Positions 40,579 through 55,364 of a DNA stretch of 55,364 nt are shown here, in pieces. The position numbers and the translations under genes were made by a program. This stretch comes from Bacillota bacterium (lineage in GTDB: Bacteria; Bacillota; Dethiobacteria; DTU022), in NCBI GenBank assembly GCA_030611385.1, contig JAUWPV010000011.1, positions 1-55,364 on the forward strand. Reading direction: 5' to 3'. The notes below the pieces were generated by a model, which made no database searches, was not told the origin of the DNA, and saw only the letters and a program-made list of their open reading frames with translations. How positions within the stretch are numbered: position 1 is the first letter of the stretch; the number at the start of each line of letters is the position of its first letter.

Positions 40579-42126
40579 TTACTGGTAACCATTAATTTTA
40601 AGAAGTTTGTTTAAACCATTCAGGTACGCTATGACACTGGCTTCAATAATATCAGTGCTGGTACCGCGTCCGGTTATAGTTCTATCCTGATAAGACATCT
40701 TAACCTGCACTTCGCCGAGAGCATCGCGCCCCTGGGTAACAGCGTTTATACTGTAATTCTCCAAACCGATATTTAAACCGGTTATTTTATTAATTGCATT
40801 ATAGGCGGCATCAATTGGCCCTGAACCGACCGCGACCTCTTCAATAGTGCTCTCATCATCTTTGATTAGACGGATAATTGCCGCCGGGATACTTTTACTA
40901 CCACTGACTGTTTGCAGGTAATCAAGTTTGTATCTGGGTTCTGTAAAAGAGAGATGATCGAGAATAAGAGCCTCAAGATCTTCAGGATACACTTCATTTT
41001 TTTTGTCAGCCAGACTGACAAAATGTTCGTAAATTATTTCGAGCTCGTCAGTATTCAGTGAAAAACCCAGCTTGTTTAACTGATCTAGAACGGCATGTCT
41101 TCCTGAACGGGCTGTGAGGCAGATCTGGGCCGCCGTGCCGCCAATCAATTCAGCATCGATAATCTCGTATGTTTCTTTGTTCTTCAATATACCGTCCTGG
41201 TGAACACCGGATGAATGAGCGAAAGCATTTAAACCAACTACAGCCTTATTGACCGGAACAGAGATGCGGGTCAGTTTACTGACCAGGCGGCTGGTTCGAT
41301 ATATTTCAGAGAAATTCAGATCGGTGTGATAGGGAAAATAGTTTTGCCTGATACGCAGAGCAACAGCAATTTCTTCAAGAGCGGCATTTCCAGCTCGTTC
41401 ACCGATGCCGTTGATATTGCACTCGATCTGGCGAGCGCCGGATTTTACAGCTTCCAAAGAATTTGCCACTGCCAGGCCGAGATCGTTATGGCAGTGGACA
41501 CTGAGAATAACTTTGTCCAGACCTTCAACATTTTCTCTCAGACGCCTGATCAAAGCCCCGAATTCTTCAGGAATTGCGTAACCGACAGTATCCGGAATAT
41601 TGATTACCGAAGCTCCAGCCTTGATCACAGCTTCAAGCAGTTCATAGAGATATTCTTCTCTGGCCCTGCTGGCATCTTCGGGTGAATACTCAACATCCTC
41701 AGTATATCGGCGGGCATATTTAACTGCCTCGACACCCTGTTCAAGTAGCAGGGCAGGATCCTTTTTTAACTTATGCTGCATATGGATATCCGAAGCGCCC
41801 AGAAAAACATGCAGGCGCGGGCGCTCAGATTCCCTGATTGCTTCCCAGGCGGCATCAATATCGCTCTGAACTGCCCGAGCCAGAGCACAGATGATTGGAC
41901 CCTTGACCTGTCTGGAAATGCCCTGGACAGCTCTCATTTCGCCTGGAGAAGATATTGGGAAACCAGCTTCGATAATATCAACATTAAGGCGGGCAAGCTG
42001 ACGGGCCACTTCGAGCTTCTCCTCGTAGTTGAGGCGAGCGCCGGGGGTCTGTTCCCCATCACGTAGTGTGCTGTCAAATAAATATATTTTTTCGGGTGTC
42101 GCGGTTTTAATAGTTTCTTGATTCAC
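40579..42126 (-). CDS. leuA: 2-isopropylmalate synthase
   Basis: A 515-residue LeuA. The TIM barrel opens FDSTLRDGEQTPGARL near residue 17, with the catalytic Arg-Asp and metal residues, and VSVHCHNDLGLAVANSLEAV near 200 supplies two histidines. The C-terminal regulatory domain (about 390-510) usually binds leucine. It condenses acetyl-CoA with 2-oxoisovalerate. I chose GTG 42126, which has GGAGGG seven bases up. The open frame beyond it runs back through the T-box terminator. Expression should depend on uncharged tRNA-Leu through that leader. No other leu gene is in the window. Confidence 0.95.
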   Translation of the reverse strand: MNQETIKTATPEKIYLFDSTLRDGEQTPGARLNYEEKLEVARQLARLNVDIIEAGFPISSPGEMRAVQGISRQVKGPIICALARAVQSDIDAAWEAIRESERPRLHVFLGASDIHMQHKLKKDPALLLEQGVEAVKYARRYTEDVEYSPEDASRAREEYLYELLEAVIKAGASVINIPDTVGYAIPEEFGALIRRLRENVEGLDKVILSVHCHNDLGLAVANSLEAVKSGARQIECNINGIGERAGNAALEEIAVALRIRQNYFPYHTDLNFSEIYRTSRLVSKLTRISVPVNKAVVGLNAFAHSSGVHQDGILKNKETYEIIDAELIGGTAAQICLTARSGRHAVLDQLNKLGFSLNTDELEIIYEHFVSLADKKNEVYPEDLEALILDHLSFTEPRYKLDYLQTVSGSKSIPAAIIRLIKDDESTIEEVAVGSGPIDAAYNAINKITGLNIGLENYSINAVTQGRDALGEVQVKMSYQDRTITGRGTSTDIIEASVIAYLNGLNKLLKINGYQ

Positions 42127-42182
42127 TAATAATCCCTCCAATTCAGATCTGTTAAAGCTGGGAGTGGGGGAGGAGACCTCAA

Positions 42183-42432
42183 TAAAAAAACCTTCGTCCA
42201 AGAGACGAAAGCTTATTTTCGCGGTACCACTCTTCTTGGTGGCACAACTTCTACCACCCACTCTTTAAGATAACGGAAGCATCCGGTCAGGCCTAATTTT
42301 GGTTGTTATGCACCAATTTCGGTTGACGGCTAACGGAGGAGTTCACAAACCTTGTTATACTGCTTTTCACCGGGCGGCAGTTCTCTAAAATAACTTAGCA
42401 TGTTACTGGTTCCGCTCATCGCCTTGTTATAT
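42183..42432 (-). promoter_or_regulatory. T-box leader with Leu (CTC) specifier ahead of leuA
   Basis: Read on the minus strand, the leader starts GGCGATGAGCGG, has the stem I distal motifs AGAGA and GGTGAAAAGC, and a specifier loop GTGAACTC whose CTC (complement of 42339-42341) is a leucine codon. The T-box AAGAGTGGTACCGCG (42234-42220) is the antiterminator strand that pairs with the tRNA CCA end. The terminator CTTTCGTC/GACGAAG with seven Ts lies at 42210-42184. Uncharged tRNA-Leu should stabilise the antiterminator and allow leuA transcription. Confidence 0.93.
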
Positions 42433-51954: not shown

Positions 51955-52215
51955 TTAACGTGGTTCGATAATCAGTTTGATAGCCGTTCGTTTTTCACCC
52001 TCGATTTCTATATCCGTAAAGGCAGGAATGCAGATTAAATCCATACCACCCGGAGCGACGAAACCACGGGCTATAGCCACCGCTTTCACGGCTTGATTAA
52101 GGGCTCCCGCTCCTACTGTTTGAATTTCTGCTTTCCCTCTTTCCCTGAGCACTCCTGCAAGAGCGCCGGCTACGGAATTGGGATTGGATTTTGATGAGAC
52201 TCTCAAAATGTCCAT
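51955..52215 (-). CDS. spoVS: Stage V sporulation protein S
   Basis: An 86-residue Alba-like small protein beginning MDILRVSSKSNPNSVAGALAG, with the conserved AEIQTVGAGALNQAVKAVAIARG and DLICIPAFTDI blocks typical of SpoVS, split here into short parts. It influences asymmetric septation and coat formation in spore formers. ATG 52215 follows AAAGGAGG. A sigma-H-type promoter stands 30-60 bases upstream. Confidence 0.95.
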   Translation of the reverse strand: MDILRVSSKSNPNSVAGALAGVLRERGKAEIQTVGAGALNQAVKAVAIARGFVAPGGMDLICIPAFTDIEIEGEKRTAIKLIIEPR

Positions 52216-52308: not shown

Positions 52309-53094
52309 CTAGATAATGTCGAAGATCCGTTCAATCGATTCAGCTTTACCGTCTGCCTCATTTATCTCAACAACAACTGCGTTAAAGACCATTCTGCCAT
52401 CCGATATACTTAGTTTGTGTGGTAGTTGAGTAATAAATCTTTTTAAAGGGCCACTTTTATCGACTCCCAATATAGCATCGTAGAGGCCGACCATACCGAT
52501 GTCAGTTATGTATGCTGTTTTTTGTGGAAGAATCCTTTGGTCGGCAGTTTGAACATGACTGTGCGTACCGATAACAGCGCTTACCTGGCCATCCAGATAC
52601 CAACCAAGAGCCTGCTTTTCAGATGTTGCCTCGGCGTGAAAATCAACAATAACGATAGGGGCCTTACTCTTCAGGCTAACCAATTCCCTGTCGGCACTAC
52701 GAAAAGGACAATCTGCTGGTCTCATAAAAACCCTGCCAATTAAATTTAGAACTGCAATTTTCTTTTTTCCCTTGTTTTTTTCGATAATAATTGAACCTTT
52801 CCCGGGAGTTGTTTCTGCAGGATAATTAGCCGGCCTGATCATTCTCGGTTCGCGATCGATAAAATTAAATATATCTTTTTGATCCCAGATATGGTTACCG
52901 CCTGTTATTACATCGATACCCATTGCTCTCAGTTCAATAAATACTTTTTCGGTTATTCCGGCGCCGCCTGCAGAATTCTCGCCGTTGGCACAAATAAAAT
53001 CGAAGTGTTCCTTTTTTTTCAATTCCGGTAGATAATTTTGCAAACACTTCCTGCCTGCTTTACCAACAATGTCTCCGATGAACAAAATGCGCAT
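52309..53094 (-). CDS. ymdB: YmdB-family 2',3'-cyclic phosphodiesterase
   Basis: The 261-residue metallophosphoesterase has FIGDIVGKAGR at 5-15, ANGENSAGGAGIT near 36, GGNHIWDQKD near 64, DFHAEATSEK near 150 and GTHSHVQTAD near 176. All dinuclear metal ligands are present. YmdB hydrolyses 2',3'-cAMP and affects biofilm and sporulation decisions in Bacillus. The neighbours rny and spoVS are the expected ones. ATG 53094 has only a weak ribosome site. Confidence 0.93.
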   Translation of the reverse strand: MRILFIGDIVGKAGRKCLQNYLPELKKKEHFDFICANGENSAGGAGITEKVFIELRAMGIDVITGGNHIWDQKDIFNFIDREPRMIRPANYPAETTPGKGSIIIEKNKGKKKIAVLNLIGRVFMRPADCPFRSADRELVSLKSKAPIVIVDFHAEATSEKQALGWYLDGQVSAVIGTHSHVQTADQRILPQKTAYITDIGMVGLYDAILGVDKSGPLKRFITQLPHKLSISDGRMVFNAVVVEINEADGKAESIERIFDII

Positions 53095-53323: not shown

Positions 53324-54859
53324 CTATTTGGCGTAATCTACCGCCCGCGTTTCCCTGATCACCGTGACCTTTATCTGTCCGGGATATTCCAGTTCGCTTT
53401 CTATTTTTTTAACAATATCTCGCGCCACCTGGATTGCGGAGTAATCATCAATCCGGTCAGGTTTAACCATTATCCTGATTTCACGTCCGGCATGTATAGC
53501 GTAAGCTTTTTCTACACCGTCAAATGAGTCGGCAATATTCTCCAACTTCTCTAACCGTTTTATATATGTCTCTAAGCTTTCGCGCCTTGCTCCCGGACGA
53601 ACAGCCGATATAGCATCGGCTGACTGAATTAAAACCGCCTCCAAAGTATTAAATTCTGTATCACCGTGGTGGGCGGCAATAGCATTAACTATTGCCGGAG
53701 TCTCGTTATGCCTTTTGGCAGATTCCGCACCAATTTGGACATGTGAACCTTCAGTTTCATGGTCAATCGCTTTTCCGATATCGTGAAGTAATCCGGCTCG
53801 TTTGGCAAATGTAATGTCGAGGCCCAATTCTGCGGCCATAATTCCTGCCAGATGGGCTACTTCGATCGAATGCTGTAAAACATTCTGACCATAACTCGTT
53901 CTGAAGCGAAGCTTGCCAAGCAAAATTACCAGTTCAGGATGCAGACCATGAACTCTTGATTCAAAAGCAGCGCGTTCGCCTTCCTCCTTGATCCGCACCT
54001 CAACTTCTTTGCGGGTTTTTTCAACTACCTCTTCTATTCTGGCTGGGTGAATTCGCCCATCACTGATCAATTTTTCCAGCGACAGGCGGGCTATCTCACG
54101 CCTGATCGGATCAAAACCAGATATGATTACTGCTTCGGGTGTATCATCGATGATCAGATCAATGCCCGTAAGTGTTTCGAGTGCCCTTATATTGCGGCCC
54201 TCACGGCCGATAATTCTTCCTTTCATCTCGTCATTGGGCAGGGAAACAACTGATACTGTTGACTCTGTTACATGATCGGCTGCACAACGTTGTATGGCAA
54301 GCGTTACAATCTCGCGGGCCTTTTTCTCCCCTTCAGCCTTGGCCTGATTTTCGATATCCTTGACCATGACCTGCATTTCGTGATCTATTTCGTTTCTTAC
54401 TCGCTGCAGCAATAGTTCTTTTGCCTCTTCCGAGTTCATGCCGGACACTCTTTCCAACTCGACTAGCTGCTGCTGCTGTAATTGATCCAACCTTTCTTTG
54501 AAAGCCTTGTTTTCCGCTTCCTTACGTCGAAGGTCTTCCTCTTTATTCTCAATATTATTAATTTTTCGATCGAGGCCTTCTTCTTTTTGAATCAACCGCC
54601 GCTCCAGTCGCTGCAGTTCAGAACGTCGCTCTCTGCCTTCTCTATCCAGTTCGTTTCTAAGTCTGAGTGCCTCTTCTTTCGCTTCAAGCTGTTTTTCTCT
54701 TTTGATAGCGACCGCTTCACGATTGGCTTCTTCAAGAATTTTTTTGGCTGCAGTTTCAGCAGAAGAGATCTTGGCTTCAGCAATCACTTTACGGATAATA
54801 AAGCCGATTCCGGAGCCTACAATCAGGGCAGCAAAGATCAATATTAAGTTTTCTGACAT
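53324..54859 (-). CDS. rny: Ribonuclease Y
   Basis: The 511-residue RNase Y has an N-terminal membrane anchor (3-22), a long charged coiled coil (about 30-190), a KH domain ([19 protein letters not shown] near 210) and an HD domain (HDIGKA and HHGDTE from about 355 to 405) with the metal-binding HD pair. It starts decay of many mRNAs and sits at the membrane. ATG 54859 was chosen for GGAGGT seven bases upstream over the GTG at 54868. The transcript begins about 220 bases upstream and has a structured leader. It leads into ymdB. Confidence 0.95.
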
Positions 54860-54915
54860 AATGTTCACCTCCGTTTAATATAGTTATTGATTAGCATTAG
54901 TTCGTTCAATAAAAT

Positions 54916-55057
54916 AAGCTGTGTCCAGGACACAGCTTAAAGAGAAAGTTCAGGAAAAGGATAGAGCAACCCCTTCACCTATAAGATTATATATTTTTTA
55001 ATCTATCCGCAGTGCCTTCTGGCACCAAGGGTTCTCTTGTCCGTTATGAACTGAACT
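54916..55057 (-). promoter_or_regulatory. Structured rny leader ending in a terminator-like hairpin
   Basis: On the minus strand AGTTCAG (55057-55051) pairs with CTGAACT (54953-54947) and closes a domain. Inside, AGAG with CTCT and AACCCTT with AAGGGGTT extend the rod (55037-55027 with 54975-54963). GTGCC-AGAA-GGCAC (55025-55012) and an AGATTA/TAATCT hairpin form two arms. Eight bases after the domain comes AAGCTGTGTC-CAG-GACACAGCTT (54938-54916), followed by ATTTTATT. Layout suggests an aptamer plus expression platform. I cannot match it to a known riboswitch. Confidence 0.5.
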
Positions 55058-55084
55058 ATAAATGATTATATAAATCCTCTTTTA

Positions 55085-55113
55085 ATTTTAGCCTGTAAAT
55101 AATATTATGTCAA
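55085..55113 (-). promoter_or_regulatory. Promoter of rny
   Basis: On the minus strand TTGACA (55113-55108), a 17-base spacer and TAAAAT (55090-55085). An insertion sequence starts within about 10 bases upstream of the -35. Confidence 0.85.
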
Positions 55114-55123
55114 GAAGACGCGA

Positions 55124-55188
55124 TCACTCACTTATAATCTTACTAAAGGGGTACCGGCTCACTCACGACGAAATCTTACCGAGGGGTT
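55124..55188 (+). repeat. Two tandem imperfect repeats at the IS left end
   Basis: TCACTCAC-n-AATCTTAC followed by an A/G-rich tail to GGGGT occurs at 55124-55152 and again at 55159-55188, 35 bases apart. Their position just before a transposase gene suggests the terminal repeat and an internal transposase-binding copy. Confidence 0.7.
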
Positions 55189-55193
55189 GTGAA

Positions 55194-55364
55194 ATGGCCA
55201 TGTCAAAACAAAGTCGTCGTGAGTATTTAAACAATATGCGTCAACGGTACCGGAAAGCAGTTTCACGAACTGAGAAAACAAATATCATTGATGAGGTAGT
55301 CACACTATTGGCATACCATCGCAAGCATGCTATTACGGTTTTAAATCAAGCGCCTGTATCGCTT
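55194..55364 (+). CDS. Transposase, N-terminal part (runs off the window)
   Basis: From ATG 55194 (or ATG 55200) the frame is open to the edge for 57 codons. MSKQSRREYLNNMRQRYRKA and later GRxHAI-type text YHRKHAITVLN fit the N-terminal helix-turn-helix of integrase-core transposases that begin 'SRKEYLxxxRxRYxxA...GYxRKxAIRxLN'. The DDE domain would lie outside. The family is not certain (IS481-like or unclassified). GAGGGGTTGTG supplies the ribosome site. Confidence 0.7.
   Translation, partial: MAMSKQSRREYLNNMRQRYRKAVSRTEKTNIIDEVVTLLAYHRKHAITVLNQAPVSL

Follow-up and report, generated by a model that had tools for sequence, protein, structure and literature searches.

RNase Y is a main decay-initiating nuclease of Firmicutes, and to our knowledge the setting of its level is known in detail only for Bacillus subtilis. 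The 5′ UTR element of enterobacterial rne constitutes the Rfam family rne5. In B. subtilis, the enzyme controls its own synthesis, with cuts in a 164-nt UTR and over the initial ~100 nt of the rny ORF that are followed by RNase J1 (PMC10303841). This is a precedent for feedback through a leader that an earlier, sequence-only reading of the present locus did not know of. RNase Y prefers AU-rich unpaired RNA and G/A dinucleotides (PMC11780869), and in B. subtilis it turns over attenuator leaders in general, many of which accumulate when the enzyme is depleted (PMC3542257).

The leader that precedes rny in the window, which is the whole stretch of 55,364 nucleotides analysed from a Bacillota bacterium (contig JAUWPV010000011.1), is a new cis-regulatory RNA, quite probably an attenuator, that is absent from Rfam. 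Nothing in Rfam scored above the gathering threshold with the window leader, for which a relaxed threshold gave chance-level matches only, and no family exceeded the gathering threshold at 19 related loci. A search of open-access papers yielded no description of an rny attenuator. The rny leader is not a T-box; the only T-box leader in the window (127 bits) lies at 42198-42428 on the minus strand, ahead of an ORF (40579-42261) whose sequence reads as 2-isopropylmalate/homocitrate-synthase-like.

The rny locus and the leader fold

The rny leader is encoded on the minus strand and is read from position 55113 down to rny (Table 1). A promoter, a multi-arm fold and a terminator-like hairpin, which the sequence-only reading had placed in the order of a regulated leader, are all present, with the promoter near consensus and the hairpin T-tailed. 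The coding sequence is preceded by a Shine-Dalgarno sequence (GGAGGTG, ~54872-54866) and likely starts at ATG 54859, GTG 54868 also being possible. No leader-peptide ORF is evident, since the window leader, as read from the sequence, contains no AUG before the terminator. On the plus strand, an ORF at 55107-55364 diverges from rny and runs off the contig end; it resembles the start of a transposase with a probable ATG near 55201, and a Pfam search gave no match. The first ATG of this ORF overlaps the −35 of the rny promoter, and at its place relatives carry a co-directional gene that is recX-like by eye.

Table 1. Features of the rny locus and its leader in window coordinates
Feature	Position	Strand	Description
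Promoter	55085..55113	−	−35 TTGACA 55113-55108, 17-nt spacer, −10 TAAAAT 55090-55085; 11/12 consensus match
P0 5′ strand, GUUCAG (antiterminator strand)	55051..55056	−	Complementary to 54928-54923; conserved, partly covarying
P0-P1 linker, UUCAUAACGGAC	55039..55050	−	Conserved UUCAUAAC in alignment
P1 5′ strand, AAGAGAA	55032..55038	−	Consensus fold; pairs with 54946-54940
P2 hairpin, GGUGCC-AGAA-GGCACU	55011..55026	−	Pairs 55026-55021/55016-55011
J2/3, AU-rich, near-invariant GGAUAGAUuAAAA	54981..55010	−	Alignment conservation; candidate RNase Y cleavage site
P3 hairpin, AGGUGAAGG...CCUUUUCCU	54952..54980	−	Pairs 54980-54972/54960-54952
P1 3′ strand, UUCUCUU	54940..54946	−	One base from terminator
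Terminator hairpin, AAGCUGUGUC-CUG-GACACAGCUU	54916..54938 (within the 25-nt span 54939..54915)	−	T-rich tail 54915-54907; 99% paired across leaders
P0 3′ strand, CUGGAC	54923..54928	−	Terminator loop and start of terminator 3′ arm
rny (RNase Y)	53324..54868	−	Pfam RNase_Y_N 3e-62, KH_1, HD
ymdB, 3′ of rny	52309..53094	−	Pfam YmdB 8e-109
spoVS, downstream	51955..52215	−	Pfam SpoVS 3e-38

The leader (54906-55080, minus strand) folds with a free energy of −51.0 kcal/mol, a z-score of −3.4 relative to shuffled sequences. This unconstrained minimum is the structure drawn in the sequence-only reading, with an outer helix AGTTCAG/CTGAACT, a rod continuing through AGAG/CTCT and AACCCTT/AAGGGGTT, and two arms; it is, however, a window-specific alternative that lacks conservation. 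Relatives show the 7-bp outer helix only weakly, with 13 of 200 permutations equally good, and in almost every relative the AACCC of the rod is replaced by AAGCC or a similar sequence. The conserved P1/P2/P3 fold comes to −50.7 kcal/mol in the window, and because the two folds lie 0.3 kcal/mol apart, energy cannot choose between them, whereas comparison can.

Conservation and covariation among relatives

The rny gene was present in 58 of 60 relatives. Within the window's own family (f1), all upstream regions long enough to be read share one series of elements, which has drifted in the remoter genera: TTGACATAAY..TAMAAT; GUUCAGUUCAUAACYGA; AAGAGAAAG; GGUGCC..GGCACU; GGAUAGAUWAAAA; ..AAGGG..CCCUU..; CUUUCUCUU; and AAGCUGUGUCCUGGACACAGCUU. 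The promoter elements TTGACATAAY.. and TAMAAT are retained in nearly all complete f1 leaders and are similar in the sister families f5 and f6. A covariance model (R1) built from 21 f1 leaders matched upstream of rny in 39 of the 43 f1 genomes; in the four that were missed, either no rny was found (G064, G035) or rny or the leader was cut by a contig end (G032, G012). The R1 search found no leader at genes other than rny in 71 order-level genomes, and across 299 genomes of the phylum it matched the family only, plus one marginal 56-nt match (G294, E 0.006).

P1 (AAGAGAAAG/CUUUCUCUU) closes a three-way junction with P2 (GGUGCC/GGCACU) and P3. Over 38 leaders, 94.0% of the cells in P1-P3 and the terminator were paired versus 47-56% in slid controls, 65 cells showed both-side changes versus 22.4 in shuffles, and the covariation score was 0.229 versus 0.147 in shuffled alignments (0/500), the alignment behind these figures being fitted to the covariance model and thus biased toward the structure, while the same pairs were seen in MAFFT alignments. 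P2 was 96% paired over the 38 leaders, with both-side changes in four of its six pairs, and all seven modelled pairs of P3 changed on both sides somewhere in f1. That a conserved structured leader stands ahead of rny can be regarded as almost certain.

The f5 leaders gave no strong R1 score, yet they follow the same plan: CUUAAAAUAGAUUUGACCAU .. UGCC..GGCA .. AUGGCCAUUUCUAUUUU, then AAGCUGU..ACAGCUUAUUUUU. A second model (R2), built from f5 leaders alone, retrieved the f1 leaders of G022 (5e-6), G024, G009, G011, G010 and G016, all upstream of rny, which makes it very likely that the f1 and f5 leaders are homologous. The same model retrieved an f3 leader upstream of rny (G037, E 3e-7). Sixteen leaders of f6, which belongs to the same class, carry P1 AUAAAGAG/CUCUUUAU, P2 GGCY/RGCC, P3 AUCUUUUACUGG/CCAGUUAAGAU and a terminator UAGCUGUGUG-CCC-GCACAGCUA. 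The sister families keep the architecture with a different sequence, and an intrinsic terminator lies between promoter and coding sequence in f1, f5 and f6. All 61 of the R1/R2 matches compared lay upstream of rny, 60 at 33-109 nt from the rny match and one at 325.

The P0 helix and the terminator

In three families, and with different sequences in each, the terminator loop and 3′ arm can pair with a strand immediately 5′ of P1. The resulting helix (P0) and the terminator cross, and one excludes the other. In f1, GUUCAG pairs with CUGRAC, as a perfect 6-bp helix in 23 of 27 core leaders; the pairing is retained in L006 (GUCUG/CAGAC). A compensated variant is also seen in L030 (GUUCCG/CGGAAC). 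The f6 strands GUGUGGG(U) and (A)CCCRCAC change jointly among variants (L195, GGGU/ACCC; L198, GUGCGUU/AACGCAU; L202, GUGCGGA/UCCGCAC). Pairing in f5 is seen in L070, L073, L077, L064 and others, which make up only about half of the f5 leaders.

For all 68 leaders, the 26 nt preceding P1 were paired with the terminator loop/3′ arm and the best helix was scored, giving 13.78 for a leader's own strands, 12.65 for partners permuted within families (0/200) and 10.43 for dinucleotide-shuffled sequences (0/100). By family, the comparison of own with permuted partners gave 0/200 in f1, 1/200 in f5 and 0/200 in f6, and the identical test placed 26 nt further upstream revealed no P0-type pairing (132/200). 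Column covariation of P0 alone was positive and modest (score 22/500 in f6, 50/500 in f1). When the two states were enforced, the energy of P0 minus that of the terminator averaged −0.7 kcal/mol in f6, +2.6 in f1 and +3.9 in f5, the two states being close to equal in f6 and f1. In the window the terminated state is favoured over P0 by about 7-8 kcal/mol, which implies default termination there unless P0 is stabilised or wins kinetically.

An alternative helix exclusive with the terminator has been kept in evolution, more weakly in f5, and this exclusivity argues that the leader is quite probably a transcription attenuator operating through P0, as judged from the sequences. Extension of P1 into the terminator base (CUUAAAA/UUUUAAG) was rejected as the switch; it is plausible in f5 and basal f1 and absent from core f1, the window included. 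Comparison among leaders bears out the leader itself, P1, P2, P3, the terminator and the predicted exclusivity of P0 and terminator. The conserved promoter, the covarying domain and the terminator, together with an antiterminator that had gone unseen, support the sequence-only claim that RNase Y has a regulated leader. Conservation upstream of rny, suggested then as a check, is provided by the 39 f1 genomes, and the match to a known family that would have refuted the claim did not appear. The term riboswitch-like suits the terminator/antiterminator architecture; a ligand would be hypothetical, and the absence of a family-independent core and a linkage exclusive to rny argue against a metabolite. 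Overall, the observation is confirmed, and its extent is larger than had been reported.

Control of RNase Y supply

In the proposed mechanism, RNA polymerase would start at the strong promoter and produce a leader of ~170 nt in which the P1-closed P2/P3 junction domain sits between the two P0 strands. If P1 holds, the P0 strands would be near each other and P0 would take the terminator loop and 3′ arm, permitting read-through into rny. With the domain cut, disrupted or left unstabilised, the terminator would form and only a short RNA would be made. The topology suggests that the P1-P3 domain may bring the P0 strands together and so favour read-through, while termination in vivo, the direction of control and the signal are what we infer. 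If the signal is RNase Y activity, excess enzyme would cut the nascent leader in its AU-rich J2/3, with loss of P0 and an end to rny transcription.

Such RNase Y feedback is the tentatively favoured reading of the signal, held at slightly less than even confidence, because rny is the only gene served, because the 5′ UTR of B. subtilis rny is cleaved by RNase Y itself (PMC10303841), because many attenuator leaders accumulate on RNase Y depletion (PMC3542257), and because the composition of J2/3, rich in A and U and in f1 also bearing G/A, matches the preference of RNase Y (PMC11780869). The families f5 and f6 lack the G/A-containing GAUAGAU, so a common cleavage site across families is unsupported; as a universal RNase Y motif GAUAGAU was rejected, k-mer enrichment over diverse rny leaders not having singled it out. 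RNase Y is membrane-bound in B. subtilis, which makes it uncertain whether the nascent leader would be cut fast enough. The best explanation, for and against which confidence is evenly balanced, is an rny attenuator leader with RNase Y activity as its most likely signal. A broader proposal is that of an ancient attenuator that senses RNase Y activity directly, a nuclease-operated switch in which cutting of the leader flips P0 to the terminator, with the terminator-bearing rny leaders of Firmicutes as relatives or analogues; this is speculative and somewhat unlikely.

Ribosomal-protein leaders drift fast in sequence and keep their architecture as they co-evolve with their protein. The fast drift and kept architecture of the rny leader would fit a co-evolving partner as well, and the attenuator could answer to another protein (a Y-complex homologue, another RNA-binding protein or the ribosome) or to RNase Y binding without cutting; the enzyme carries a KH domain. 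No candidate binding motif is common to the families, however, and control of this kind is considered unlikely. A metabolite- or ion-binding riboswitch domain, with its ligand setting termination, would account for the aptamer-like three-way junction, for a J2/3 that is single-stranded and conserved inside f1, and for the terminator/antiterminator layout. Against it, J2/3 is wholly different among f1, f5 and f6, so that the high conservation of core nucleotides across distant carriers is confined to f1; no other gene is served in the order-level genomes or, bar the one short marginal match, in those of the phylum; and RNase Y does not act in a metabolite pathway. With a core not conserved between families and a single gene served, a riboswitch appears less likely than RNase Y feedback, and improbable in itself. 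A passive leader, with a constant partial terminator and a 5′ stabilising structure but no regulation, would be consistent with the almost invariant terminator sequence and promoter of f1 and with its imperfect T-tract, but across the families the two P0 strands have both changed and stayed complementary, and the idea is very unlikely. That the terminated RNA is a stand-alone trans-acting small RNA with rny merely the next gene, as its own promoter and terminator and its ~170 nt might suggest, is likewise very unlikely, as it is always directly upstream of rny and never elsewhere, no promoter-like site is seen by eye between terminator and rny, and the obvious candidate, 6S RNA, was rejected with its locus elsewhere in the genome (G000 C28:77440-77619).

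Terminator-bearing rny leaders recur beyond these families. Among 77 rny leaders of diverse named Firmicutes, from which f1 members were excluded, an intrinsic terminator lay between the predicted promoter and rny in 26, versus 1.6 in shuffles, although some promoters may be mis-called. Compared with the 2-3% of Bacillus genes that are attenuated (PMC3542257), rny stands out. CUCGGU-type terminator stems recur in rny leaders of several classes. In Desulfotomaculia-type leaders (L090, L091, L093), GGGAGAAAAUAGAAU pairs with AUUCUAUUUUCU as a long P1 abutting an ACCGAG/CUCGGU terminator; no P0 was found in them by eye, and they are perhaps the same RNA. Clostridial leaders L113, L122 and L135 share GAGUAAUCCUGCACUGCCRAGUGCGUU..AUCAUAGA and a CCGGGCAGUUU(U)GCUCGG terminator. 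Another conserved leader, specific to its lineage, is that of Clostridium L105, L108, L112, L120 and L133, with AAAUACUGGUUUA..CAUA followed further on by GACACCU/GGCACCU. In Lachnospiraceae-type leaders (L131, L136, L139, L144, L148, L150) the conserved 5′ UTR is a different one, with UUAAGUGUUGUA..UACAAUGAAAAUUAAAUAAGGAGGUGCUCCUGU and no terminator.

Collectively, a class-wide covarying attenuator and terminator-bearing leaders in a third of the sample point to premature termination as a widespread means of setting RNase Y supply. In this class the supply is probably set by an RNA on/off switch that appears in none of the libraries and papers searched. As a compact RNA the rny leader lends itself to testing, and it offers a Gram-positive parallel to RNase E feedback. 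As is probable here, RNase Y synthesis in B. subtilis is controlled via the 5′ leader of its own mRNA, but the account of that system mentions neither a terminator or antiterminator nor a class-wide fold (PMC10303841). The enterobacterial rne 5′ UTR element, through which RNase E is autoregulated, is likewise a cis element conserved before the gene of the principal decay endonuclease; it works by promoting mRNA cleavage and not through a terminator, and it has no sequence or Rfam match to the rny leader (PMC10989929, PMC10303841). Riboswitch and T-box attenuators likewise combine a leader domain with a mutually exclusive antiterminator and intrinsic terminator, whereas the rny leader has no conserved ligand core or T-box sequence and a single target, rny. 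L20/infC-type ribosomal-protein leaders, with a different gene and structure, are also structured and exert autogenous control by terminating transcription prematurely, and RNase Y itself acts on the infC leader (PMC3542257).
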